64,000 nt of DNA, taken from the NCBI RefSeq assembly GCF_020463795.1, contig NZ_CP080025.1:251001-315000 (forward strand). Reading direction: 5' to 3'. A model generated the notes under the pieces. That model had not been told where the DNA came from, did not search any database, and saw only the letters and a list, made by a program, of their open reading frames with translations. Origin of the DNA: Echinicola marina. Lineage in GTDB: Bacteria; Bacteroidota; Bacteroidia; Cytophagales; Cyclobacteriaceae. The position numbers and the translations under genes are program-made. Below, piece by piece: positions 4,469 to 20,699 of this stretch. The number at the start of each line of letters is the position of its first letter. Positions within the stretch are counted from its first letter, which is position 1.

Positions 4469-4505
4469 AAAGGCCCTATGAGCAATCGTAAGGCCTTTGC
4501 TTTTT
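4469..4505 (+). terminator. Rho-independent terminator after frr
   Basis: AAAGGCC pairs with GGCCTTT around a 16-base loop, followed by GC and then TTTTT. It lies between the convergent ends of frr and the DUF5686 gene. The T-tract is on the plus-strand side only. Confidence 0.7.
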
Positions 4506-7140
4506 AATTGATATTGATAAATGAGGCTATGCCCAATCGCAGTCCATTTTTTTGATAATCCCCATCCTCAAAACCAAGCCCAAATTCTACCCTGAATAGT
4601 CGGAACAGATTATCCAAAGAATATCCGACTTCCCAATAATGGGGACTTACCTCTGTTTTAAGATAATTAAAAAACAAATTCTCCCTGATTCCTGAAAACC
4701 GCAAAACAGGAAACTGGGTCAACAGAAATTTCCTGAACTGATAATGAACAATGGAACTTAGGTAATTTCCTCCAGTGCTGTATTTATAATAACCCAAAAG
4801 CCGGTAATTATTCACCGTTCCCATATTTGAAAAAATTGTTCTATTGCCCCCAAAATGCTTGTAATCCATAAAGTAGAGGTTTTTATTATTGATAAACCCT
4901 CCTGCCTTTACATTAAAGTCCAGCTTTCCACTGACCCCTAATTTAAAACCATGCTTTACACCCAATTCCAATTGGTCAAAATCAGCAGCTTCCTCTCCCA
5001 AACCAGTATTGGCCAATCCCTTTCTATAAACAAAGCTGATGAGCGGGGCTGTGCTATTGAGAGGATGCCTTTCATTATTTCTAACATAATATTTCAAACC
5101 AGGCCTCCACTCCATATTCCAATCCAAAATCAAAGATTCATTGGAAGCAAATGCCCCATCACCTGCCTCTATATTTCCTGGTCTATTGGAAGTATATACT
5201 CTTCCGGCCTTGTGATAAAAGCTGTAATCATTACTATTTTCCAAAGTGTTTCTATTTGCATAGCTCATGGATAGTTGATAACTAAACGCCTCACTAGGTT
5301 TATGTTCAAAGTATAACTGAATGAATTTTTTGTCATATAGTTTCATATAATTTTGTCTGAAAAAGAGGGAATAAAAAGCATTTACCTGCTCATTAATAGG
5401 GTCCTCAGAATTAAATTGATAGATATAACTTCCCCCTTTCAGACCATAGGACATTTGCCGCCTCATATGGGTCCACGACCTTTTAAAATCCACCACTCCA
5501 TAAAATTGATGGCTAGAAAATCCATAACGGACTTCAGGACTAATTCGCCAAGAACTTGAACTTTGGAAAACACTGTCCTTTCTCTCTACTTTAAAATAGC
5601 CACCAAACCCCAACTTAACTCCTTCAACTGTATTGAAAGATACCTTACTCCAGTTTGGCTTGAAGCCCGCTGAAATCCCTTTACCAAAATAATAATCACC
5701 ACCTCCTATAATATCCACTACTTTGAATTTTCTCTTCATCTCACCTGAAAGGGAATCCACATTTGACTTCTTGGCTGACTCCACTTTTGCCAAACTATCA
5801 TCCCTTTGGTATCCCAATATTTCTTTTTGAGTTAGTTTTACAGGCCTGACACTATCCCAATAGGTTTTGTTTCTTTTCTCTGCCAATGAATCTATTGAAT
5901 ATTCCCTCTTAGCAATCACCTCGGCATCTTTCCTTTCCTTTAGGCTCTGTTTTTCATATTGGTTGATTACTTTTCTAAAGTCTCTCCGGCTCAACTGCTC
6001 CATACCTTCCAAATCCTCAACAGCAATTTCCTTTGCACTTATCTCTTCAACTGCTTCAGGAATACTTTCCACGTTTTCATCCAATATTTCAGTATCAAGC
6101 ACCAAATCTGGATTGAGCTTGATCTCATAATCCCTCGTTGTGGCCAGGTATTTATAATGTCCTTTGAAACCAAAAAAATTACCGGAAAAAGAATAAACAT
6201 GCGTAAGCGGCATCCACACATTTTCACCCACTTTAACATACTGCTGTCGAACCCCGATGGCAAACCCCATAAATGAAGTCTTCAAATCCAAACTATGGAT
6301 GGCCCAAAGATCTTCGATAATATAAATATGCCCCTCGAAAACCTGCTCCCCTCTTGATCTGGGGACAACCCGAATTTTATTGACCAAAACACCATTTTCA
6401 TAAAAAGTCCCCTCATGCCTAAATCTATAATAGACAAAAGCCGATCTGGACAGCGGAGATACAATATCATTGATTTTATCCGCATAAAAACTCGCCCCAA
6501 TATAGGGTGCAGGACTGGTCTGATTGTTTTCTCCTGTTGACCTAATACTAATTACCCTTTCCGAAATTTCATTGGGCTGCCTAAAGACTACTTCCGAAAC
6601 TGACTCTGAAGTATAGGCCTCATTGAGCTCCAAGCCTTCTTCCTGGAGTTTCCTCCTCATAAAAAATGGTGCATCTGTCAATTCCCCAGTACCTTTAATA
6701 TACACTTTCATACGGTACTCTGCCACCTGGAGCCTATGGTATTTTGCCTTGGCTATTGCCTTTCGCATTACTGTTAAAGCTGGATCTTCTGCATCATCCC
6801 TAATCTCCACTTCTTCCAACGCATATACCTGAGGCTTCAAAACAAATTCTACTTCCTCCCAAGCTTCTTTTACTTCAATGGTTTTTTGAGAAAATTCATA
6901 ACCTAAGTGCTGCACGATGACATCATAAACCCCAGGAGTCAATGGTATTTCAAACAGCCCTTCCTGATTAGAGGGAACACCATCGTTAAGGTTTCTTACA
7001 AAAACAGAGGCATATGCCAAAGGATCTCCAGCCTCATTGATAACTATTCCTTTTATTCCTTGTCCAATTACCCTAAGACATGATAGAAAAAAGAAAAAGC
7101 CAATTAAAACAATCAACTTGATCATTACAGAACTGTCCAT
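4504..7140 (-). CDS. DUF5686 / carboxypeptidase regulatory-like domain outer-membrane protein
   Basis: Large predicted outer-membrane protein of the Bacteroidota. After a signal peptide (MIKLIVLIGFFFFLSC...) comes a carboxypeptidase-D regulatory-like beta sandwich of about 85 residues (GIVINEAGDPLAYASVFV ... GVYDVIVQHLGYE). A long DUF5686 region follows, rich in aromatic alternating strands, ending in a barrel-like C-terminus. A charged, helix-prone segment sits mid-protein (about residues 360-460). The frame is open up to a GTG at 7149, but ATG at 7140 or 7125 is more likely; 7125 gives the cleanest signal peptide. A possible -7 box (TATTTTTG, minus strand) lies at 7242-7249. Members often sit near TonB-dependent systems; the function is unknown. 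Confidence 0.8.
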   Translation of the reverse strand: MDSSVMIKLIVLIGFFFFLSCLRVIGQGIKGIVINEAGDPLAYASVFVRNLNDGVPSNQEGLFEIPLTPGVYDVIVQHLGYEFSQKTIEVKEAWEEVEFVLKPQVYALEEVEIRDDAEDPALTVMRKAIAKAKYHRLQVAEYRMKVYIKGTGELTDAPFFMRRKLQEEGLELNEAYTSESVSEVVFRQPNEISERVISIRSTGENNQTSPAPYIGASFYADKINDIVSPLSRSAFVYYRFRHEGTFYENGVLVNKIRVVPRSRGEQVFEGHIYIIEDLWAIHSLDLKTSFMGFAIGVRQQYVKVGENVWMPLTHVYSFSGNFFGFKGHYKYLATTRDYEIKLNPDLVLDTEILDENVESIPEAVEEISAKEIAVEDLEGMEQLSRRDFRKVINQYEKQSLKERKDAEVIAKREYSIDSLAEKRNKTYWDSVRPVKLTQKEILGYQRDDSLAKVESAKKSNVDSLSGEMKRKFKVVDIIGGGDYYFGKGISAGFKPNWSKVSFNTVEGVKLGFGGYFKVERKDSVFQSSSSWRISPEVRYGFSSHQFYGVVDFKRSWTHMRRQMSYGLKGGSYIYQFNSEDPINEQVNAFYSLFFRQNYMKLYDKKFIQLYFEHKPSEAFSYQLSMSYANRNTLENSNDYSFYHKAGRVYTSNRPGNIEAGDGAFASNESLILDWNMEWRPGLKYYVRNNERHPLNSTAPLISFVYRKGLANTGLGEEAADFDQLELGVKHGFKLGVSGKLDFNVKAGGFINNKNLYFMDYKHFGGNRTIFSNMGTVNNYRLLGYYKYSTGGNYLSSIVHYQFRKFLLTQFPVLRFSGIRENLFFNYLKTEVSPHYWEVGYSLDNLFRLFRVEFGLGFEDGDYQKNGLRLGIASFININ

Positions 7141-7353
7141 ACAAAACACAATGATTTCACAGGAGTAAATTAATCATATCCAAATAATAAAAATAAGTAT
7201 TTGACAATACTTGCTTGGATAAATCCGAAAAACTACGCTATCAAAAATAAAAGAAAAAGCTTCCTGAAGAAGCTGTTAAAATAAAGAAGGGACAGCCATC
7301 AGCTGCCAATTCTTTTCCATTTATTTAAACCTTACGTGTTAAATATACCTTGG

Positions 7354-8622: not shown

Positions 8623-11600
8623 ATGAGAAAAACTCTACAAAAGTTGAGGGTCCTCTTGTTATGCACTTTGTTTTTAACAACCGTGCAATCGATAACATAC
8701 GGACAAAGTAGAGAAATAACCGGTTCGGTTATTTCCTCTGAAGACAATCAACCTCTACCGGGTGTTTCTGTTTTAGTACAGGGCACTACGAAAGGGACCA
8801 TCACTGACTTGGATGGAAATTTCAAAATCACCTTAAACCCAGGTGAAAATGTTTTAACCTTTTCCTTCATTGGATTTGAAACCCAAGATGTCACCGTCGG
8901 GAATCAAACTAACCTATCCATCACCATGAATGAAGACCTCAAGTCACTTGGTGAAGTGGTGGTAGTAGGTTATGGTGAGCAAAAGAAGGAAACTGTAACT
9001 GGTTCTGTCGCCTCAGTCAAGGGCACTGAACTGGCCAAATCCCCCGCAACCAACATCTCCAACTCCATCGCAGGTAGAATGCCCGGCGTAGTTGCCGTAA
9101 ACCGTAGTGGTGAACCTGGCTATGATGGATCAGGTATCCGTATCCGTGGCTCAAACACTTTAGGTAATAATAATGCCCTAATCGTGATTGATGGAATACC
9201 TGCCAGAGCAGGTGGCTTCGAAAGACTTAACCCAAATGATATTGAAAGCATCTCCGTATTGAAAGATGCTTCTGCGGCCATTTACGGTTCCAGAGCTGCT
9301 AATGGTGTAATCTTGGTAACGACCAAAAGAGGTAAAAGTGGAAAGCCAGAACTATCCTACCAGTTCAACCAAGGATGGGGCCAACCAACTGTATTGCCTG
9401 ATATGGCGGATGCCGCCCAGTACACTGAAATGCTTAATGACCTAAGTGTCTACGAATTACCTGTCGAAGAGTGGCAAGCAGCTAATGACGCCTACAAAAC
9501 CACAGGCGTCTATACCCGTCCAAATGGCCAGGAAAGGGCTGCCCCATTCACCCCTGAGGACATCGCGGCCTATCGTGCCGGTGGTGATCCTTGGAACTAC
9601 CCCAATACAGACTGGTATGACGAGACCCTTAAAACTTGGTCTCCACAAGTAAGACACAACTTACAACTTAATGGTGGCAGTGAAAACGTAAAATATTTGG
9701 CTTCCCTAGGCTATCAAAACCAAGACGCGTATTACAAAAATGCAGCCACTGGCTATAAGCAATATGATATGAGAATTAATCTTGATGCAAAAATCAACGA
9801 TTATATCAGTGTCAAACTAGGTGTACTTGGTCGTGAAGAATTCAGGTTCTTCCCTACCAGAAGTGCGGGAGCCATCTTCCGTATGCAAGTAAGAGGTAAG
9901 CCTCATCAACCTGCCTACTGGCCAAATGGTCTTCCAGGGCCGGATATTGAAAACGGTGAAAACCCTGTGGTGATCACCACCAATGCTACTGGCTATGACA
10001 GGGACAAAAGGGACTATTTCCAGTCCAATGGTGAATTGACTATCAAGATCCCTGGTGTAGAAGGACTTAAATTTGTCGGAACGGCAGCCGTAGATAAACT
10101 TTCCAGAGATCTCAAAAGATGGGAAACCCCTTGGACACTTTATGAACGAGGCAGCGGTTTTGAAGATGATGGTGTAACTCCAGTATTGGTCCCTAGTAAA
10201 AGAGGACCTGCTGAACCAAGACTTCGTCAGCAACACTATAATCAGCTGAATATCCTTTTGGGAGGTGTTTTCTCTTATGACAAAACATTCAATGAGGACC
10301 ATACCATTAATATTTTGGCTGGTACCAATAGGGAAACTGAAGAAGGCGATAATTTCTTTGCATTCAGAAGGTACTTTATCTCTCCTGCCATTGACCAAAT
10401 GTTTGCCGGTGGTGACTTGGAAAAAGATAATGGTGGTGGTGCTTACGAAAGGGCCAGATTGAACTATTTCGGTCGTGCCTCCTATAACTATAAAGAAAAG
10501 TACCTTGCCGAGTTCCTTTGGAGATATGATGCTTCTTATATCTTCCCTGAAGATACTCGATTTGGTTTCTTCCCAGGCATCATGCTGGGCTGGGTTGCCT
10601 CTGAAGAAGATTTCTTCAAAAACGCCATCCCTGCCCTTGAATTCTTCAAGATCCGTGGTAGCTGGGGACAGATGGGTAATGACCAAATTTATTTTGAAAA
10701 TACCCTGCAAGAGTATCAGTTCCTTTCCACTTATGGATTTAACAGCTATATCATAGATGGAGCAGAGACCAAAACTTTATTTGAAACTAGGGTTCCCAAT
10801 ACAGCCATTACCTGGGAGGTAGCCAATAACTCCAATATTGGTATAGAAGGTCAATTATTAGATGGAAAAATCTTCTTCGAAATGGATTATTTCTATAATA
10901 AGCGTACCAATATCCTTTGGAGAAAAAATGCATCAGTACCGCAAAGTACAGGACTTTCCCTTCCTGCTGAAAACATTGGTGAAGTGGCCAACTCTGGTTT
11001 TGATTTCCTAATGGGTTATAGGGGCCGCGCGGGTGATTTCAATTATAGTGCAAGTGTAAATGGTGGTTATGCCAAAAACGAAATTCTTTTCTGGGATGAG
11101 CCAGGAGGTGCTGAAGAATGGCAAAAATCTACAGGTAAACCAATGAACACTTTCTTGGTTTACCAATATGATGGTGTTTTCCCTGACCAGGCTTCCATCG
11201 ATGCAGAAACATTGGATTATTCTGACATCACCAATGAATTGAGACCTGGAGACATGAAATATGTGGATTATGATGGTGATGGTGCCATTACTCCCAAAGA
11301 CCGTGTCAGAATGGACCAAAACAATATTCCTATGTTCCAAGGAGGTGTTAACCTAACAGCTTCCTATAAAAACTTCGATCTTTCTGTTTTGATCCAAGGT
11401 GCATTTGGTGCCCGTCAATACATCAGTGCAGGTGAATCCGGTAATATTGGTAATTACTTCTTGGATATCTACCAAAACAGATGGACGGTGGATAACCCAA
11501 GCACTGAGCATCCTAGAATTGCCAATAGAAGTGACCAATACTATTCAGGAGGAAACACTTACTGGTTCAGAAAAGCTGATTATATCCGTTTGAAAAACGT

Positions 11601-11796
11601 TGAAATTGGCTATAATCTACCTGTAGAAATTGGTCAAAAAGTAGGCATCAGTAACTTAAGGATATTTGCTAATGGACTGAACTTGGCCAACTTCATGAAT
11701 AAGCTTGGAATTCTTGATCCGGAGACAGACGCTTCTACCGGCCAATACTACCCACAAGCTAGAGTAATTAACACTGGCCTATCTCTCACCTTCTAA
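8623..11796 (+). CDS. SusC/RagA family TonB-linked outer-membrane transporter
   Basis: A 1057-residue TonB-dependent transporter that would form a SusCD complex with the next gene. A signal peptide (to about residue 28, ending TYGQ) is followed by a carboxypeptidase regulatory-like domain (about 30-110; GSVISSEDNQPLPGVSVLV), the TonB-box region and plug (VVVVGYGEQKKETVTGSV; IRGSNTLGNNNALIVIDGIP; KDASAAIYGSRAANGVILVTTKRG) and a barrel ending in the typical GLSLTF. There is no STN signalling domain at the N-terminus and no FecR/sigma pair next door, so surface signalling through an anti-sigma factor is unlikely. SusD begins 18 bp downstream. The substrate cannot be told from the sequence, and no glycoside hydrolase is nearby. 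Confidence 0.96.
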   Translation: MRKTLQKLRVLLLCTLFLTTVQSITYGQSREITGSVISSEDNQPLPGVSVLVQGTTKGTITDLDGNFKITLNPGENVLTFSFIGFETQDVTVGNQTNLSITMNEDLKSLGEVVVVGYGEQKKETVTGSVASVKGTELAKSPATNISNSIAGRMPGVVAVNRSGEPGYDGSGIRIRGSNTLGNNNALIVIDGIPARAGGFERLNPNDIESISVLKDASAAIYGSRAANGVILVTTKRGKSGKPELSYQFNQGWGQPTVLPDMADAAQYTEMLNDLSVYELPVEEWQAANDAYKTTGVYTRPNGQERAAPFTPEDIAAYRAGGDPWNYPNTDWYDETLKTWSPQVRHNLQLNGGSENVKYLASLGYQNQDAYYKNAATGYKQYDMRINLDAKINDYISVKLGVLGREEFRFFPTRSAGAIFRMQVRGKPHQPAYWPNGLPGPDIENGENPVVITTNATGYDRDKRDYFQSNGELTIKIPGVEGLKFVGTAAVDKLSRDLKRWETPWTLYERGSGFEDDGVTPVLVPSKRGPAEPRLRQQHYNQLNILLGGVFSYDKTFNEDHTINILAGTNRETEEGDNFFAFRRYFISPAIDQMFAGGDLEKDNGGGAYERARLNYFGRASYNYKEKYLAEFLWRYDASYIFPEDTRFGFFPGIMLGWVASEEDFFKNAIPALEFFKIRGSWGQMGNDQIYFENTLQEYQFLSTYGFNSYIIDGAETKTLFETRVPNTAITWEVANNSNIGIEGQLLDGKIFFEMDYFYNKRTNILWRKNASVPQSTGLSLPAENIGEVANSGFDFLMGYRGRAGDFNYSASVNGGYAKNEILFWDEPGGAEEWQKSTGKPMNTFLVYQYDGVFPDQASIDAETLDYSDITNELRPGDMKYVDYDGDGAITPKDRVRMDQNNIPMFQGGVNLTASYKNFDLSVLIQGAFGARQYISAGESGNIGNYFLDIYQNRWTVDNPSTEHPRIANRSDQYYSGGNTYWFRKADYIRLKNVEIGYNLPVEIGQKVGISNLRIFANGLNLANFMNKLGILDPETDASTGQYYPQARVINTGLSLTF

Positions 11797-11814
11797 TTAT
11801 TAACCAACACGAAG

Positions 11815-13680
11815 ATGAATAAACTTAAAAATATAAGCTACATGGTCTTGGTTACACTGTCATCCTGGATGATGGGCAGTTGTAATGCAGATTTTGTAAA
11901 TACAGATCCTTTGGGCGAAGTATCAGAATCCGATGTATGGTCTGATGCAGCCTTAGCAGAAGCAGCTGTTACGGATATATACCGTGGATTGGGAAATGGA
12001 GGTTTTGACGAACAGATGCTGGCTTCTCTAACTGACGAAGCCATATTTACGCACCCAGGACGTGGAATCACCACAATCACAGAAGCAAGATCAAACCCTG
12101 CCGATATAGGTTGGGTGAACAACACCCTTTCATGGGGGAATATGTACAGCTATATCCGTTCGGCCAACGTGGCTATCCAGAACCTGACCGAACCAGAATT
12201 TCCAAATGAAAATGGTATTGTGGACCGCTTAATGGGCGAGGCTAAATTTATGCGTGCTTATTACAGTCACCAATTGCTGAGATACTATGGCGCATTTCCA
12301 ATTGTAGACCGCCCCTACACACTAGGCGAAGAGTCATATGATGCAGCCAGAAACACCTGGGAAGAATGTGTGGATTTCATCGTTACCGATCTGGACGATG
12401 CAGCAACTTTGCTGGATGGTAAATCCATGGCTGCTGGCCGTACCAATAGAATTGCCGCTTTAGCACTTAAGTCTAGGGTCCTACTATATGCTGCCAGTGA
12501 CCTTCATGATATCCCTACTGCATCAGCAAATTCCTCTGTGATATCCGGTTACTCCAATCCTGAATTCCTTGGATATACATCTGGTGACAGAACCCAGAGA
12601 TGGCAGAGGGCCCAAACAGCCGCCAAAGCGGTTTTGGACAATGCAGATGGCAATTTATTGAACTTGGATGGACCTGTACCTCATGAAGAGGGCATCCAAA
12701 ACTATATCAATAATTCACTTTCAAAAAATGGCGGTGAAAATGAATTGATCTTTGCCAGGTATTTTATTAATGCCAAACAGGAAAACGGTGGTCGCCAAGG
12801 CTTGTTCAATGGGCCAAACGGCTATAATAACTGGGCAGGTAATACGCCAATCCAACATTTTGTGGATGATTATGAAATGATGGATGGGACCGAGTTTGAT
12901 TGGGACAATCCAGAACATGCTTCCGCTCCTTATGACAACCGGGATGCCAGGTTCTATGCTTCTATCCTATATGATGGTGCTCAATGGAAACCAAGATCTT
13001 CTGCTAACCAACCAAGAGATCCACTAGGTCAAATCCAAACTGGCCAGTATGAAATCATATCAGGCGGAGAAACCGTTATCCACTTTGGCTTGGATACCAG
13101 AAACGGCCCTATTGAAGATTGGAATGGTAGTTATACGGGATATTATATGAGAAAATTCATTGATCCAGACCCCGCCATTGTTGATCAAAACACTTGGCAA
13201 GAGATTCCTTGGCCTGTATTAAGATACACCGAGGCTGTTCTAAATTATGTAGAAACGTGTATTGAGCTTGGCCAAGAAGAAGAAGCCAGAAATTGGTTGA
13301 ACAAAATCCGCTATAGAGTGGGTATGCCAGCCATTAACGATTCAGGCGAGGCCCTCATGGAGAGATACCGTAATGAGAGAAGAATAGAAATGGCTTACGA
13401 GGAACAGCGATACCACGATTGTAGAAGATGGATGATTCCTGAAGAAACATTAGGAAGAAAAGCCAATGGCATCAATATCGTTGGTGAATTAAAACCAGGA
13501 GAATCCCTCAGCCTGTATAGATATGATCCAAATATCTATAATTATTCTTACCAAGCTGTTAATATAGATCCAGGTAAGGAAAACAGGACTTGGCTGGACA
13601 AAATGTATTTCTTGCCAATTTCGCAGGATGAAATGAATAGAAATGCCGCCTTGGTACAAAACCCAGGTTATACAGAATAA
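11815..13680 (+). CDS. RagB/SusD family nutrient-binding outer-membrane lipoprotein
   Basis: Surface lipoprotein lid of the SusCD transporter. The signal ends in lipobox MGSC (Cys23). The N-terminal SusD-like part (YRGLGNGGFDEQMLASLTDE; GEAKFMRAYYSHQLLRYYGAFPIVDRP, near residues 140-165) is the TPR-like scaffold. The RagB/SusD C-terminal part has WPVLRYTEAVLNYVE, RYRNERRIEMAYEEQRYHDCRRW and the closing FLPISQDEMNRN...QNPGY motif. The 621 residues exceed many SusD proteins but are within the family range. It is co-transcribed with the SusC gene 18 bp upstream, and a terminator-like hairpin follows its stop. Confidence 0.96.
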   Translation: MNKLKNISYMVLVTLSSWMMGSCNADFVNTDPLGEVSESDVWSDAALAEAAVTDIYRGLGNGGFDEQMLASLTDEAIFTHPGRGITTITEARSNPADIGWVNNTLSWGNMYSYIRSANVAIQNLTEPEFPNENGIVDRLMGEAKFMRAYYSHQLLRYYGAFPIVDRPYTLGEESYDAARNTWEECVDFIVTDLDDAATLLDGKSMAAGRTNRIAALALKSRVLLYAASDLHDIPTASANSSVISGYSNPEFLGYTSGDRTQRWQRAQTAAKAVLDNADGNLLNLDGPVPHEEGIQNYINNSLSKNGGENELIFARYFINAKQENGGRQGLFNGPNGYNNWAGNTPIQHFVDDYEMMDGTEFDWDNPEHASAPYDNRDARFYASILYDGAQWKPRSSANQPRDPLGQIQTGQYEIISGGETVIHFGLDTRNGPIEDWNGSYTGYYMRKFIDPDPAIVDQNTWQEIPWPVLRYTEAVLNYVETCIELGQEEEARNWLNKIRYRVGMPAINDSGEALMERYRNERRIEMAYEEQRYHDCRRWMIPEETLGRKANGINIVGELKPGESLSLYRYDPNIYNYSYQAVNIDPGKENRTWLDKMYFLPISQDEMNRNAALVQNPGYTE

Positions 13681-13710
13681 GCCACGACCTATTGTTAATT
13701 TTTAATAAAG

Positions 13711-13750
13711 AATCTATACCGAACCTCAGTGTTTGGTATAGATTTTTTTA
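13711..13750 (+). terminator. Strong hairpin with T-tract between susD and the VCBS gene
   Basis: AATCTATACCGAAC pairs with GTTTGGTATAGATT (14 pairs including one G-U) around a 6-base loop, followed by a run of T. It would end or attenuate the SusCD transcript. The next gene starts only 30 bp beyond, so read-through or a promoter overlapping the T-tract (TATATTTA at 13749-13756, one base off TAnnTTTG) would be needed to express it. Confidence 0.8.
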
Positions 13751-13779
13751 TATTTAATTATCCACAATAAACACCCAAT

Positions 13780-16700
13780 ATGCTCAAACTCTACTCAAGA
13801 ATAACCTCATCACTCATCATTAGTTTGATTGTTTCTTGCGAGCCACCAAAGCAGCAGGATAAACCTAAGTCAAACATAAAACCACTATTTGAATTAATAG
13901 ATTCAAAAAATTCCCATATCACCTTCCAAAACAAGCTCACCGAAGGACTTAATACCAATGTCCTTATGTATGAATACTTTTACAATGGAGGTGGAGTAGC
14001 CATTGGAGACCTCAATAGTGACGGTCTTGATGATATTTATTTCACCGCTAATATGTCAACCAACAAGCTCTATCTTAACCGAGGTGAAATGGTATTTGAG
14101 GACATCACCACCTCTTCCGGCACACAAGGGCGCAAGGGACCTTGGAAAACCGGCGTTACCATGGCAGATGTAAATGGAGATGGCTTACTAGACATCTATG
14201 TGTGCTATTCAGGTAATTTGAGACCAGAAAAAAGAAAAAATGAACTCTACATTAATCAGGGATCTGATAAAAATGGCATTCCACAATTTACAGAGGAAGC
14301 TGAAAAATATGGCATAGCCAGTGCTGCCACCAGTACCCAAGGCACTTTCTTTGATTATGATAAAGATGGAGATTTGGACTTGTATCTCCTGAACCATAAC
14401 CATAAATCCTTACCCGTACTAGATGAATCAAGCACCGCTGAAATCCTAAAATCAAAATCACCTGCAGGTGCTCAACTTTTTAGAAATGACAATGGAAAAT
14501 TTACTGAAGTTACCGAAAAAGCAGGAATAAGGAACTCCGCCCTATCTTATGGCTTGGGCTTAGGAGTAGCAGACATCAATGGCGATGGCTGGCCAGACAT
14601 CTATGAATGTAATGACTATACCGCACCTGATTATCTTTATATCAATAATGGTGACGGCACCTTTACCGATGTAATTGGCGGCGAAATGGGACATACCTCT
14701 CACTTTTCCATGGGCAGTGATGTGGCAGACATCAATAATGATGGCTTACCGGATATTTTCACTTTGGATATGTTGCCAGAGGACAATAACCGTCAAAAAT
14801 TGCTCATGGCACCTGATAACTATGAAAAATTTGACTTCAAAGTCAAAGTAGGCTTTCACCATCAATACATGAGAAACATGTTGCAGGTCAATAATGGCAA
14901 CCAGTCATTCAGTGAAATTGGTCAAATGGCAGGAATATCCAATACCGACTGGAGCTGGGCAGCCCTCTTTGCAGATTTTGATAACGATGGCTGGAAGGAT
15001 TTATACATCACAAACGGATATTTAAGGGATTATACCAATATGGACTTCCTTAAGTTTATGGGAGATTATGTCCAAAACAATGATGGTAATATCAGGAGAC
15101 AAAATGTGTTGGATCTCGTCAAACAAATCCCTTCTTCCAACCTTCATAACTATATGTTCAAAAACAAAGGCGACCTTACCTTTGACAAAGTCAGCAAGGA
15201 TTGGGGAGTAGACTATGCATCCAACAGTAATGGTGCCGCTTATGCAGACCTTGACAATGACGGTGATTTGGATTTGGTGGTTAATAACATCAACCTGGAG
15301 GCCTTTATATTCAAAAACCTAAGTGATCAACAATCAGACAATGCCTATCTTAAAATACAGCTAAAAGGTGAGGCTAAAAACACATTTGGACTGGGCACCA
15401 AAATCTGGATATACAGCCAAAAAGAAGTATTATACCAAGAACAAATGCCTACCCGTGGCTATCAATCCAGTATTTCTCCTGTAGTCCATTTTGGTTTGGG
15501 CAAGGCCAGCACCATTGATTCCATCAAAGTAACATGGCAAAGCGGTAAAAGCCAATTATTGGAAAATATCAAAGCAAACCAAACTTTAATACTTTCTGAA
15601 AGTGACGCAACGGAACAAAAACAAATAAAAGATTCCAACAAACCTTTATTTGTACCTACATCAACAACTATTTCGACCCAACACCAAAAGAACAATATAA
15701 ATGACTTCAAAAGGCAGCCTCTTTTAGTTAATCCTCTATCATTTAACAGTCCTATCATGGCCCAAGCAGATATAAATAGCGATGGCTTGGAAGACCTCTT
15801 TGTGGGAGGAGGGCTAGGCGATGCAGCCCAGCTCTTCCTTCAAAATAAAAATGGAGGTTTCACCAAAACCAATGGACAAGCTTTTTTAGAAGACAAAGAC
15901 AGTGAAGACACGGATGCAATATTCTTGGACATCAATGGAAACGGGCATTTGGACCTTTATGTAGCCAGCGGTGGTTATGCCAATTTTATGCCTGAAGACA
16001 AAAAGCTCCAAGACAGGATATACATCAATGATGGCAAGGGTAACTTTAAAAAATCTCGTGAAGCATTGCCTAATATGCTGGTGAGTTCCAGCTGTGTAAG
16101 TGCATCAGACATCAATGCTGATGGGGCTCCGGATTTATTTGTGGGAGGCAGGGTGATCCCAGGCATGTACCCTACAGTTCCAAGAAGCTTTATCCTGATC
16201 AATGACGGCAAGGGCAAATTCACCGATCAAACCAAAACGATAGCCAATGAGCTTGAGCATCCGGGATTGGTCACTGATGCAAAATGGGCCGATTTAAATG
16301 CTGACGGAAAGGATGAATTGATCATTATTGGAGAATGGATGCCCATCTGCATTTTTGAGCAGGAAAATGGAAAACTCTCTAAAACAAGCGATAAGTACCT
16401 TGAAGAAGAATATAGCGGCTGGTGGAACACTTTAGAAATAGCTGACCTGAACGGAGATAATCAAATGGACCTTGTTGTTGGAAACCAGGGCACCAACACC
16501 CAGATACATGCCAACCAAGAAGAGCCTACAGAAATGCTCTATAAAGATTTCGATGAAAACGGCTCCATTGATCCCATCTTAACTTGCTATATCCAAGGTG
16601 AAAAGTTTCCTTATCTTACACGAGACGAACTACTGGACCAGATGGCCAGTATGAGAACCCGTTTCCCTAGCTACAAAAGTTATGCTGAAGCAAAAATTGC

Positions 16701-17112
16701 CGACATCTTTACTGAGAATGAGCTAAAAGGAGCAAAACTTCTATCGGCCAATTATTTAAAAACGGCGGTACTCATAAGCAACAATTCAGGAAAATACTCC
16801 ACTGCTACATTACCTTTGGAAGCGCAGGCCTCTCCTGTCATGGCTATCGCCTGTGATGATTTTGATAAAGATGGAAATACCGACCTGCTTTTATGTGGAA
16901 ATATTGAAAAGGCAAGGTTGCGATTTGGAAAATACGACGCTAACTATGGCACACTTCTCAAAGGAAATGGCCAAGGTGGATTCACCTATATTCCACAGCA
17001 TCAGTCAGGATTCAAGTTAAAAGGAGACGTACGAAGCATTGCCAAGCTAAATGATCAATGGCTTTTTGGCATTAACCAAAAAGGAGTAGTGGCTTATGGC
17101 CCTGCCCAATAA
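13780..17112 (+). CDS. FG-GAP/VCBS repeat and ASPIC/UnbV domain lipoprotein
   Basis: An 1110-residue predicted surface or periplasmic lipoprotein (lipobox IVSC, Cys20). It carries about 14 calcium-binding-loop repeats of the DxNxDGxxD type, for example DLNSDGLDDIYF, DVNGDGLLDIYV, DINGDGWPDIYE, DFDNDGWKDLYI, DINADGAPDLFV and DFDKDGNTDLLL. These form integrin-like beta-propeller blades (FG-GAP/VCBS). Two propeller sets flank an ASPIC/UnbV domain near residues 525-610 (GLGTKIWIYS ... HFGLGKASTIDSIKVTW). Such proteins are widespread beside SusCD in marine Bacteroidota without an assigned function; binding of a ligand or partner is the likely role. The haloperoxidase-like gene follows after 17 bp, so they are surely co-transcribed. 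Confidence 0.92.
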   Translation: MLKLYSRITSSLIISLIVSCEPPKQQDKPKSNIKPLFELIDSKNSHITFQNKLTEGLNTNVLMYEYFYNGGGVAIGDLNSDGLDDIYFTANMSTNKLYLNRGEMVFEDITTSSGTQGRKGPWKTGVTMADVNGDGLLDIYVCYSGNLRPEKRKNELYINQGSDKNGIPQFTEEAEKYGIASAATSTQGTFFDYDKDGDLDLYLLNHNHKSLPVLDESSTAEILKSKSPAGAQLFRNDNGKFTEVTEKAGIRNSALSYGLGLGVADINGDGWPDIYECNDYTAPDYLYINNGDGTFTDVIGGEMGHTSHFSMGSDVADINNDGLPDIFTLDMLPEDNNRQKLLMAPDNYEKFDFKVKVGFHHQYMRNMLQVNNGNQSFSEIGQMAGISNTDWSWAALFADFDNDGWKDLYITNGYLRDYTNMDFLKFMGDYVQNNDGNIRRQNVLDLVKQIPSSNLHNYMFKNKGDLTFDKVSKDWGVDYASNSNGAAYADLDNDGDLDLVVNNINLEAFIFKNLSDQQSDNAYLKIQLKGEAKNTFGLGTKIWIYSQKEVLYQEQMPTRGYQSSISPVVHFGLGKASTIDSIKVTWQSGKSQLLENIKANQTLILSESDATEQKQIKDSNKPLFVPTSTTISTQHQKNNINDFKRQPLLVNPLSFNSPIMAQADINSDGLEDLFVGGGLGDAAQLFLQNKNGGFTKTNGQAFLEDKDSEDTDAIFLDINGNGHLDLYVASGGYANFMPEDKKLQDRIYINDGKGNFKKSREALPNMLVSSSCVSASDINADGAPDLFVGGRVIPGMYPTVPRSFILINDGKGKFTDQTKTIANELEHPGLVTDAKWADLNADGKDELIIIGEWMPICIFEQENGKLSKTSDKYLEEEYSGWWNTLEIADLNGDNQMDLVVGNQGTNTQIHANQEEPTEMLYKDFDENGSIDPILTCYIQGEKFPYLTRDELLDQMASMRTRFPSYKSYAEAKIADIFTENELKGAKLLSANYLKTAVLISNNSGKYSTATLPLEAQASPVMAIACDDFDKDGNTDLLLCGNIEKARLRFGKYDANYGTLLKGNGQGGFTYIPQHQSGFKLKGDVRSIAKLNDQWLFGINQKGVVAYGPAQ

Positions 17113-17129
17113 CCTAACTATAGGATTAA

Positions 17130-18461
17130 ATGCGATTACTTATCATGAAATACCTCAATCAATTCATAGGCTTAAGTCTAATTACTGCACTCTTACTATT
17201 CAGTTGTAGTAAAAAAAACAATAAAGACATTGAAATACCTACCGCTTATATACAAGAAGTTACAATTCAGATGACGGAATTGATGATACACGATGTCACC
17301 AATCCTCCATTGGCAGCGCGGTTTTTCTCTTATGCTTGTCTCACAGGATATGAAATCACCTCTCAAAATGACAGTAGCCTTGCAGACCTTCATGGCATAG
17401 TCAATCAATACCCTGATATCAAAAAACCTGCTGGTTTTCCTGAACAATCATATCAACTTAGTGCTATCCTAGGCATGCTTCAAACTGCCAAGAAAATCCA
17501 GCCTTCAGGCCCAGAACTCCAATCATTGGAAGACGCTATTTTGGATAGTTGTAGGAATAAGGGAATGGATGAACTGACCATTGAACAATCATTGGGATAC
17601 GCCCAATCAATCAGCCAGGAAATACTTAAATATGCCAAAGCAGATGGGTATAATTTAATCAGTAACTATCCTAGGTATACACCTTTGGAAACTCCAGGAA
17701 GTTGGTACCCGACACCTCCTGGTTATTTCGCACCTGTTGAGCCCTATTTCAGTACAGTAAGGCCGTTCTTTTTGGACTCTGCCCAACAGTTCAAACCCGC
17801 TCCACCAGTGGCATTTTCCCCTAAGAAAGATTCCGATTTTTACAAGATTACTGAAGAGGTCTACAAGGTTGACCTTAACGAAGAAAACAGAGAAATTGCC
17901 GCATTTTGGGACTGCAATCCATTTGCTTTACAAGACAATGGCCACCTAATGGTCGGGATGAAGAAAATCTCTCCCGGCGCACACTGGATGGGCATCACCA
18001 ATATTGCCTGTCAAAAAGCAGGACTTTCATTTGCCAAAACACTGGAAGTCCATACCATGATAGCCTTAGGTTTAATGGATGGATTTATTGCCTGTTGGGA
18101 TGAAAAATACAGGAGCAATAGAATCAGACCAGAAACAGCCATTAGGAAGTACATAGACCCAACTTGGACACCTTTTCTACAAACACCTCCTTTTCCTGAA
18201 TATCTGAGTGGGCATTCAACCGTTTCCACAGCAGCATCGGTAATTCTCACCCACTATCTTGGTGACAATTTTGAATATGCCGATACGGTTGAGGAACGTT
18301 ATGGATTAAAAGCCAGAACATATAAATCCTTTGCCCATGCAGCCAATGAAGCGGCCATATCCAGACTTTATGGAGGAATACATTTTATGGATGCCATCAC
18401 TCGGGGACAGACCCAAGGGAAAAACGTAGGAAGTTGGATTGTCGACAAAATCAGTTCCTAA
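17130..18461 (+). CDS. Vanadium-dependent haloperoxidase / PAP2-type lipoprotein
   Basis: A 443-residue protein of the vanadium haloperoxidase/acid phosphatase superfamily, exported as a lipoprotein (lipobox LFSC, Cys26). The full oxyanion pocket is present: Lys326 and Arg333-Pro in KYRSNRIRP, Ser360-Gly361-His362 in EYLSGHS, and Arg412 with His418 in SRLYGGIH. This order and spacing bind vanadate in haloperoxidases and phosphate in PAP2 enzymes, so halide oxidation and phosphoester hydrolysis are both possible. AGGA four bases before ATG 17130 supports that start over the ATG at 17145. It closes the SusCD-VCBS locus, ahead of a strong terminator. The fold call is firm, the reaction is not. 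Confidence 0.88.
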   Translation: MRLLIMKYLNQFIGLSLITALLLFSCSKKNNKDIEIPTAYIQEVTIQMTELMIHDVTNPPLAARFFSYACLTGYEITSQNDSSLADLHGIVNQYPDIKKPAGFPEQSYQLSAILGMLQTAKKIQPSGPELQSLEDAILDSCRNKGMDELTIEQSLGYAQSISQEILKYAKADGYNLISNYPRYTPLETPGSWYPTPPGYFAPVEPYFSTVRPFFLDSAQQFKPAPPVAFSPKKDSDFYKITEEVYKVDLNEENREIAAFWDCNPFALQDNGHLMVGMKKISPGAHWMGITNIACQKAGLSFAKTLEVHTMIALGLMDGFIACWDEKYRSNRIRPETAIRKYIDPTWTPFLQTPPFPEYLSGHSTVSTAASVILTHYLGDNFEYADTVEERYGLKARTYKSFAHAANEAAISRLYGGIHFMDAITRGQTQGKNVGSWIVDKISS

Positions 18462-18515: not shown

Positions 18516-19082
18516 TCATTGAAAGAATTTTTTGCCTCTTATATAATCTTCTACTAAAGGCGGTAAAAGATAGGTAACTGATTTCCCCTCCTCCACAGAT
18601 TTCCTAATAAAAGTCGCAGAAATATCGATCAAAGGAGCTTCTACAAAACGGACTTGGGGATGATCATAATCCACAGATTCTCCAGGCCTTGGATATACAT
18701 AAAGGCCATAGTTTTCCAAAATTTGCTCGGCATTTTTCCATTTATGGAAATGCGTCAGGTTATCCCCACCTATTATCAGCTTAAATTCATTCTGTGGATG
18801 TTTTTCAGAAAGATAGGTTAGGGTATCAATGGTATAACTGGGCTTGGGCATATGAAATTCCACATCATTTGCCCTGAAATGGAATTTTCCTTCAATGGCC
18901 AGCTCCACCATTCTCAGCCTATCAAACTCATGTAATAAAGCCTTTCTCTTTTTAAAAGGATTTTGGGGAGAAACCACAAACCAAACTTCATCCAAGTCAG
19001 TCCTGTCTTGCATGATATTGGCGATGATCAAATGACCGATATGAATGGGATTAAACGAACCGAAAAATAAACCTACCTTCAA
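18516..19082 (-). CDS. nadD: Nicotinate-nucleotide adenylyltransferase
   Basis: Converts nicotinate mononucleotide and ATP to deamido-NAD in NAD synthesis. The 188-residue protein shows the nucleotidyltransferase signature GSFNPIHIGH (residues 8-17, HxGH) and the C-terminal ISATFIRKS motif corresponding to the family's ISSTxIR. The start is TTG at 19080-19082: an in-frame stop lies five codons upstream, and the motif begins at residue 8, so no other start fits. It begins 6 bp after the gmk stop, making it the last gene of the sigma/anti-sigma/gmk/nadD operon. Confidence 0.94.
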   Translation of the reverse strand: MKVGLFFGSFNPIHIGHLIIANIMQDRTDLDEVWFVVSPQNPFKKRKALLHEFDRLRMVELAIEGKFHFRANDVEFHMPKPSYTIDTLTYLSEKHPQNEFKLIIGGDNLTHFHKWKNAEQILENYGLYVYPRPGESVDYDHPQVRFVEAPLIDISATFIRKSVEEGKSVTYLLPPLVEDYIRGKKFFQ

Positions 19083-19088
19083 TTTCTT

Positions 19089-19658
19089 CTATTTACCAAT
19101 GAATTCATCGACCAGTTTTGCCGCTTTTTCAAATGATTTTTCCATATCATCATTCACCAAAACAGCATCAAACTTATCCTGAAAAGACATTTCATATTTG
19201 GCCTTATTAATTCTCTTTTCGAGGTTTTCGGGTGATTCAGTTCCTCTGTCTTTTAATCTTTCAGCCAAAACCTCCAGAGAAGGCACTTTCACAAAAACAG
19301 CCAAGGCACGGTTACCAAAATACTCCTTGATTTTCAGGCCTCCCTTTACATCCACATCGAAAACCACATGCTTGCCACTATCCCAGATTCTTTGCATTTC
19401 AGATTTTAAAGTACCATAGAAATTGCCTTCATAGACTTCTTCCCATTCTATAAAGGCATCCTCTCCTATTTTTTTCTTGAAATCATCCAGACTTAAAAAA
19501 TAATAATCTTTGCCATCCACTTCTTTTCCTCGCTTATCCCTAGTACAAGCTGATATAGAAAAATCCAAGTTATCATGATTAGAAAGAAGGTGATGGACTA
19601 TAGTCGTTTTTCCAGAACCCGAAGGTGCCGAAAAAATAAAAGCTTTTCCAAAAGACAT
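19089..19658 (-). CDS. gmk: Guanylate kinase
   Basis: Phosphorylates GMP to GDP with ATP. The 189-residue length is normal. The P-loop APSGSGKTT (residues 11-19) is followed by the GMP-binding region ([20 protein letters not shown]) and the lid ([17 protein letters not shown]). Position-wise it follows the anti-sigma-like gene by 12 bp and precedes nadD by 6 bp, so all are read from one minus-strand transcript. Confidence 0.96.
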
Positions 19659-19670
19659 GGTGGTGATCGC

Positions 19671-19943
19671 TTATTTGATATCTTCTATTTTTTGACGGAT
19701 ACTATTTGCCAATTCTCCAGGTACAGACTGTTTTGTACACTTGTTTTTAAGTACTTCACGAATGGCTTGCTCAAGGTGATAATGCTCAAAACAAGGCTGG
19801 CATTTTGAGAGTTTTTCTTTTAAAACCTCCTTAGAGGCATCCTTGTCCTCTCCATCAAGTATACTTTCCAAAAGCTGGAAGCACTTGCTTACATCACCGC
19901 ACTTAAGTTTCTTTTCTCCGGACGAGTCTAATTTTTTCTCCAT
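19671..19943 (-). CDS. Small anti-sigma-factor-like zinc-binding protein
   Basis: A 90-residue soluble protein directly downstream of an ECF sigma gene (30 bp gap). It has five Cys (15, 21, 48, 51, 69), with a CxxC at 48-51 (KCQPCFEHYHLE) that matches the end of the zinc anti-sigma (ZAS) motif HxxxCxxC. Residue 44, where the His should be, is Lys; His54 and His56 lie just after instead. It has no membrane segment. Position and Cys pattern suggest it binds and holds the neighbouring sigma factor, perhaps in response to redox state. The role is inferred from context. Confidence 0.65.
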   Translation of the reverse strand: MEKKLDSSGEKKLKCGDVSKCFQLLESILDGEDKDASKEVLKEKLSKCQPCFEHYHLEQAIREVLKNKCTKQSVPGELANSIRQKIEDIK

Positions 19944-19973
19944 GTTCCTTTTTTTTTCACTTTCAAACTCAAA

Positions 19974-20564
19974 TCACTCTTCCTCAGTATCATACCCCAT
20001 ATTCTTAGCATAAGAATGCAATTTCTCCTTCAATAAGTTCCTTGCCCTGTGTAATCTTGATCTCACCGTACCGATGGGAATGTCCAAAATCTTGGCCATT
20101 TCCTCATAAGTAAAGCCCTCAAGGTCACATAAAATGATGACCGTTCTGAAATCCACAGCCAAACTATTGAGCGCATTGGAGATTTCATCCCCCAGCATAT
20201 CCTTTACCGCATCTATCCTAAGATCTGAGGTAATATTATAATCAACACTATCAGAGTTATAATAAGTTTCAACCTCCTGATAATCTACCTTTGACGGCTG
20301 CTTACTCTTTTTCCTGTACTCATTGATAAAACTGTTCTTCAAAATCCTAAACAACCAAGCTTTCGCATTAGTGCCCTGTTCGAAGGAGTTTATAAAACGA
20401 TAGGCTTTCAAGTAAGTATCTTGTACCAAATCCTTGGCATCATCCTCGTCAAAAGTCAGCCTGAAGGCAAAATTATACATCGAGTCAATGTGGGGCATAA
20501 ACTCATGATCGAATATATTATTCTTTTCTTTATCGGAATATTTTTTCTTCTGTACCTCAGACAT
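19974..20564 (-). CDS. ECF-type RNA polymerase sigma factor
   Basis: Extracytoplasmic-function sigma factor of about 196 residues. Region 2 (YNFAFRLTFDEDDAKDLVQDTYLKAYR ... KAWLFRILKNSFINEYRK) covers roughly residues 30-95. Region 4 (ALNSLAVDFRTVIILCDLEGFTYEEMAKIL then PIGTVRSRLHRAR) has the -35-binding helix-turn-helix near residues 160-180. The frame is open to a TTG at 20573, but ATG at 20564 is the better start. A -7-like box (TATTTTTG, minus strand, 20571-20578) ends 6 bp before that ATG. It heads an operon with a putative anti-sigma, gmk and nadD, and diverges from the acyltransferase. Confidence 0.92.
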   Translation of the reverse strand: MSEVQKKKYSDKEKNNIFDHEFMPHIDSMYNFAFRLTFDEDDAKDLVQDTYLKAYRFINSFEQGTNAKAWLFRILKNSFINEYRKKSKQPSKVDYQEVETYYNSDSVDYNITSDLRIDAVKDMLGDEISNALNSLAVDFRTVIILCDLEGFTYEEMAKILDIPIGTVRSRLHRARNLLKEKLHSYAKNMGYDTEEE

Positions 20565-20699
20565 AAGCTTCAAAAATAATCATTGACTTAATTTATCACT
20601 AATTTTTTGAAAGAATTCGCTTGATTTGATTTATTTTGAGTTCCCAAAACCACGCCTTTCACCTTTCAATAGGACGAGTTTAACGTAACACAGCACTTA

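Follow-up and report, generated by a model that had tools for sequence, protein, structure and literature searches.

We analyzed a 64,000-nucleotide (nt) stretch of the Echinicola marina genome (contig NZ_CP080025.1, positions 251,001 to 315,000; hereafter the window), in which four plus-strand genes combine a SusC-SusD uptake pair (SusCD) with a beta-propeller lipoprotein and a PAP2-domain lipoprotein of the vanadium iodoperoxidase family. The genome is a single 5.69 Mb contig, and its closest named relatives are four Echinicola species whose PAP2 proteins are 72-90% identical to that of the window. The first gene (8623..11796) encodes a SusC/RagA TonB-dependent outer-membrane transporter of 1057 amino acids (aa) with CarbopepD_reg_2 and plug domains (TIGR04056, 909 bits), in which a Pfam/NCBIfam scan matched no STN domain, as a preliminary description of this DNA had held. 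Adjacent to it lies the gene of a 621-aa SusD/RagB lipoprotein (11815..13680; SusD_RagB, PF07980), and together these two constitute a SusCD pair. The third gene (13780..17112) encodes a 1110-aa FG-GAP (VCBS-type) lipoprotein with two beta-propellers, carrying nine FG-GAP_3 stretches and 13 calcium-type motifs of the form D-x-[DN]-x-[DNS]-G. A UnbV/ASPIC domain (residues 537-603, 15388..15588; Pfam UnbV_ASPIC) sits between both propellers, and this order of FG-GAP repeats followed by UnbV_ASPIC assigns the protein to the CRTAC1-like FG-GAP/UnbV family. The last gene (17130..18461) encodes the 443-aa peroxidase-family lipoprotein, with a PAP2 domain matched by Pfam profile at residues 319-427 (18084..18410). 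The positions, strand and identities that the preliminary description gave for the four genes were confirmed, the identities by Pfam and NCBIfam. Its statement that glycoside hydrolases and sulfatases are lacking is correct for the window, where no carbohydrate-active enzyme occurs among the four proteins and eight neighbors scanned and the locus is not a polysaccharide utilization locus by that measure, but it does not extend to the family, whose sister loci carry carbohydrate genes.

Over nearly its full length (residues 15-441), the window PAP2 protein matches the vanadium-dependent haloperoxidase of PDB entries 4cit/4usz (phmmer E 8.3e-116), the sole PDB sequence that it matches at E up to 0.01. 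The window protein is 43% identical to this Zobellia enzyme, which we take to be the one called VIPO1. Relatives were gathered in two sets that may have species in common: a named set, comprising the best 80 of 292 matches from one scan of all genome contigs and favoring close relatives, and a sampled set, for which 296 genomes were chosen evenly across the phylum Bacteroidota and each of the 80 places reaching E 5.4e-56 or lower was taken. One sampled locus (L148), where the gene caller lost the peroxidase gene although propeller open reading frames (ORFs) lie upstream, was excluded from the counts, leaving 79, and an extra weaker hit (L195) was removed before counting. The pocket listed in the preliminary description (K326, R333, S360-G361-H362, R412 and H418) is correctly numbered, and all seven residues, which presumably hold vanadate, align with those of 4cit. 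They are the same as in 4cit in 80/80 named and 70/79 sampled relatives, the nine exceptions altering only the Ser or Gly of the SGH motif. The Trp preceding the pocket Lys and the Phe preceding the SGH motif, positions that we assume to bear on halide choice, are invariant in all 159 relatives. Because of the homology to 4cit, the intact vanadate pocket and the same Trp and Phe, the window protein is likely an iodoperoxidase; its sequence is also compatible with a phosphatase.

What is conserved is the pairing of propeller and peroxidase genes rather than the set of four. Within the named set, the propeller gene lies directly upstream of the peroxidase gene on the same strand in 78 of 80 loci, the remaining two being contig ends, and in 76 of the 76 loci with at least 2.5 kilobases (kb) of room. 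In the sampled set it is immediately upstream in 47/79 and within 8 kb in 60/79. Adjacent pairs are closely spaced, the gap being at most 60 nt or an overlap in 55/78 named and 39/48 sampled cases (medians of 6 and 13 nt). UnbV is present in 58/58 genomes with a peroxidase hit (E up to 1e-40; overlap counted by eye), as against 141/296 overall (p 9e-23). In the window genome, UnbV genes and such peroxidase genes number two each and form two adjacent pairs; ahead of the second pair lie two ROK genes and a gene that resembles glucosamine-6-phosphate deaminase below the cut-off, and the 20 kb read there contain no SusCD. SusC was found upstream in 51 of the 70 named loci with at least 8.5 kb of room and within 14 kb in 38 of 74 sampled loci, counts that are probably lower bounds given the narrow SusC and SusD profiles used for neighborhoods. 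The gene set expected in the preliminary description is thus conserved, as a pair rather than as four genes. A general separation of the two lipoprotein genes from SusCD, named there as the outcome that would count against a joint system, was not seen, yet they are tied less closely to SusCD than to each other. The pairing itself is well supported, and the claim with most support is that a vanadium peroxidase is closely partnered by a CRTAC1-like calcium propeller, the two often being installed in SusCD loci that have a sugar character.

Linked descent is visible at several levels. Peroxidase distances between loci correlate with those of the propeller (r 0.85, 79 loci) and with those of SusD (r 0.79, 60 loci), the latter in support of the preliminary description; 0/1000 shuffles reached either value, and these correlations do not separate linkage from shared species history. 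A better control is offered by genomes with several loci (27 loci in ten hand-listed genomes, using for each the closest propeller gene in the 16 kb upstream and leaving out propeller-less loci): in 26 of the 27, the propeller is more similar to that of the nearest foreign peroxidase than to any other propeller tested from its own genome. On a FastTree peroxidase tree of 101 loci (the 79 sampled and 22 chosen named ones), SusD type clusters, changing 17 times where shuffles averaged 37.7, a difference to which near-copies contribute.

The 99-nt gap between susD and the propeller gene folds at -25.1 kcal/mol (z -7.7) and holds, at 13707..13748 of the plus strand, an attenuator- or terminator-like RNA hairpin of 18 pairs followed by a U tract. 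Gap hairpins recur in four Echinicola relatives and in L101, with z between -4.5 and -7.1, and a weaker one is present in L042 (z -1.7); the stem sequences of L042 and L101 are quite different. Terminator-like sites are not enriched across the region as a whole (12 found versus 11.3 in shuffles). The hairpin probably sets SusCD apart from the propeller-peroxidase pair in expression level. As to cellular location, the preliminary description had the proteins act at the cell surface; they are indeed lipoproteins, but surface exposure was only assumed. In a crude test, at least two Asp or Glu residues at +2 to +6 after the lipid Cys occur in 15 of 114 peroxidases, 34 of 137 propellers and 41 of 78 SusD proteins, counting the proteins in which a crude pattern recognized a lipobox (114 of 159, 137 of 181 and 78 of 88, respectively). 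Because this acidic stretch is mostly missing in both families and frequent in SusD, both lipoproteins may face the periplasm.

Propeller lipoproteins are found with SusCD loci beyond those of the pair, the peroxidase being one of the partners that recur. Among 20 UnbV regions from genomes with no strong peroxidase hit, picked and read by hand, SusC or SusD lies nearby in 13, and the association of propellers with SusCD is therefore broader than the pair. Sister loci add sugar and redox genes, none of which is present in the window locus. A scan of the 296 genomes at the NCBIfam cut-off yielded 24 kojibiose-hydrolase genes, of which 13 have a peroxidase gene no farther than 16 kb away; in the window genome none was found above the family cut-off (best E 1.9e-8). 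Further examples are a GH116/MGH1-like enzyme (scanned in L159, assigned by clustering in L160 and L161), GH35 (L120), a sulfatase (L121), ROK genes and NagB-like genes. A GMC oxidoreductase gene upstream in L158 provides one redox hint. Another is a protein, roughly 494-541 aa long, that has a single CxxCH cytochrome-c-type motif near the N-terminus and FG-GAP repeats, Pfam detecting only the latter; its gene lies beside the pair in six sampled loci (L119, L125, L163, L166, L167 and L173).

Our best explanation as a whole, in which we place slightly less than even confidence, is that the propeller-peroxidase pair is an envelope device, often built into a SusC-SusD uptake locus. The iodoperoxidase-family envelope lipoprotein and the two-propeller FG-GAP/UnbV lipoprotein would work as a functional pair, in which the propeller protein most likely holds the peroxidase, perhaps as a physical complex, or presents its substrate. 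This pair is built into the uptake locus in many Bacteroidota, the window included, and a sugar-derived or glycosylated compound would enter across the outer membrane via SusCD. Hydrogen peroxide (H2O2) may come from sugars that the cell or its surroundings oxidize, and with it the peroxidase, loaded with vanadate, would oxidize iodide or another easily oxidized donor at the same place. Peroxide would thereby be removed, or the non-sugar part of the substrate would be halogenated or oxidized and so become usable; for the use of the oxidant, we favor substrate oxidation or halogenation over peroxide removal, phosphatase action and iodine uptake. The hairpin after susD would probably lower expression of the pair relative to SusCD. 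The preliminary description had proposed uptake of a substrate oxidized, halogenated or dephosphorylated at the surface, with the propeller as scaffold or receptor, and that proposal is partly supported. A bolder form, possible but on balance doubtful, is that this is a widespread, unrecognized envelope system of Bacteroidota, in which a peroxidase with a dedicated propeller halogenates or oxidizes a glycosylated compound during SusCD uptake.

Several observations weigh against an envelope device coupled to uptake. No propeller gene lies within 8 kb upstream at 19 of the 79 sampled places (two of them contig ends), many loci lack SusCD, among them that of the enzyme near-identical to 4cit, and the propeller family adjoins SusCD also in genomes with no strong peroxidase hit. 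Eleven of the 24 kojibiose-hydrolase genes lie away from any peroxidase gene, and the window locus contains no sugar enzyme and no evident source of H2O2. The pocket residues of the superfamily alone cannot tell vanadate from phosphate use. Among the named relatives, 49 of 80 belong to Dyadobacter, Rufibacter, Pontibacter, Siphonobacter or Larkinella, genera that are mainly non-marine, and iodide is scarce in such settings; iodide is therefore weakened as the natural donor, which need not be the sole donor. These hosts would also suit a reading in which the PAP2 protein is a phosphatase, SusCD imports a phosphorylated compound such as a sugar phosphate, phosphate is freed and vanadate goes unused in nature. 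The PAP2 fold is presumably common to bacterial acid phosphatases as well, but we consider this reading unlikely, since the entire pocket matches that of the crystallized iodoperoxidase 4cit, the invariant Trp and Phe included, and no phosphate-uptake family was seen among the neighbor representatives scanned.

The incomplete presence of SusC bears on another reading, in which the pair protects the envelope from peroxide, or makes hypoiodite to fend off rivals, has no relation to any imported substrate and is merely co-located with SusCD in some lineages. Pairs without SusCD occur in L117, L132, L135 and L138, the hairpin stands between SusCD and the pair, and the Zobellia homologue vIPO3 is reported to be induced on Ascophyllum versus alginate (PMC9296495). 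The recurring presence of pairs amid SusCD, kojibiose-hydrolase and further sugar genes speaks for a tie to uptake instead, as does the agreement of SusD with peroxidase distances, though shared locus history would give that too, and we judge an independent shield to be rather unlikely. Highly improbable, in our view, is an iodine uptake system, in which the peroxidase would turn iodide into HOI or I2 and the propeller and SusCD proteins would bind or import the iodine: we know of no SusCD transporter that carries iodine, and most named hosts are of the non-marine genera listed above. What favors it are the 13 calcium-type motifs of the propeller protein and the behavior of Arenibacter C-21, which accumulates iodine in a glucose-, oxygen- and calcium-dependent manner via a proposed glucose oxidase and haloperoxidase, and which has at least five homologues of 4USZ (PMC5064120). 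The same data would fit a link of sugar, peroxide and calcium to the peroxidase, as in the preferred explanation of an envelope device set in an uptake locus.

Downstream of the locus, a minus-strand block (18516-20573) comprises nadD, gmk, a 90-aa ORF with no Pfam match (19671-19943) and a gene for an extracytoplasmic function (ECF)-type sigma factor (19974-20573), the ORF standing between gmk/nadD and the sigma-factor gene. The preliminary description had reported no sigma/anti-sigma pair; the ECF-type gene, together with the 90-aa ORF, is in fact located 1.2-2.1 kb downstream, but it appears to lie outside the locus. Clusters of these downstream genes recur beside the loci of relatives, in 10-14 loci each, and for this reason the block looks like a fixed neighbor rather than a part of the locus. 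In L139, the cassette is followed by genes of the same lengths and order as in the window, while its peroxidase is only 43% identical, which suggests that one chromosomal site is occupied by different cassettes. On the upstream side, a minus-strand gene (4504-7149) encodes an 881-aa DUF5686/CarbopepD_reg_2 protein, divergent from susC across a 1.47-kb gap with no convincing gene.

Other genes recur near the pair in relatives. A second, more divergent peroxidase-family gene stands in tandem directly downstream of the first in L104, L107, L112, L113 and L114. Proteins of about 300 aa are encoded beside the pair in L134 (5067-5966) and L138 (575-1471), which form one family with weak to fair GyrI-like similarity, and in L194 (5991-6929), whose protein is of a different family with no Pfam match. 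Two families with no Pfam/NCBIfam match, represented by L168:489-1580 and L168:3082-3642, lie beside peroxidase genes in 6 and 5 loci. A PaaA/PaaC-type gene is found shortly downstream of the pair in L176, L178, L179, L180, L182 and L186, which are from six genomes of one family (scanned in L182, clustered in the rest).

To our knowledge, the physiological role of bacterial vanadium iodoperoxidases is an open question, and a recurrent partner and a recurrent uptake setting make it directly testable. The FG-GAP/UnbV lipoproteins of Bacteroidota, present in nearly half of the sampled genomes, gain a concrete enzymatic partner, and the pairing may bear on bacterial iodine cycling. If the bolder form of the explanation is true, the window holds a nutrient-uptake locus with a haloperoxidase as its working enzyme, and the natural partner protein was missing when the Zobellia iodoperoxidase was studied. 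We found no published description of the pairing in the literature covered, which lacked most subscription journals and the founding iodoperoxidase paper (Fournier et al. 2014). Homologues of SusD and of the iodoperoxidase are both listed for Arenibacter C-21 but not linked (PMC5064120), nor are the two linked in the portion of PMC9296495 available to us. The locus apparently represents known protein families in a strongly conserved combination that has so far gone unrecorded.

Among known systems, the nearest is the enzyme of 4USZ, named as the iodoperoxidase of Zobellia galactanivorans (PMC5064120), with which the window enzyme shares near full-length homology, the complete vanadate pocket and a lipoprotein-type N-terminus. 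A protein with 98% identity to 4cit is encoded in one genome (G182), where its gene is preceded by three FG-GAP/UnbV genes, so that a propeller gene lies directly upstream as in the window, and followed by a gene for a GyrI-like small-molecule-binding protein; on the opposite strand, a gene for a sodium/solute symporter is located upstream. The two settings differ in that the window has one propeller gene and SusCD, whereas the G182 locus has three propeller genes and, by profiles, no SusCD in the 19 kb read. The window resembles SusCD polysaccharide and oligosaccharide loci in its order of SusC then SusD, in the lipoprotein genes downstream and in the hairpin after susD, and departs from them in having a peroxidase-family enzyme where no degradative enzyme was found. 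As for the kojibiose hydrolase of PDB 7fe3 (NCBIfam NF053734), 13 sampled genomes have a family member whose gene is no more than 16 kb from that of the peroxidase. Unlike cartilage acidic protein 1 (CRTAC1, PDB 9etn), the bacterial propeller protein carries a lipoprotein signal and, at residues ~620-1110, a second propeller.

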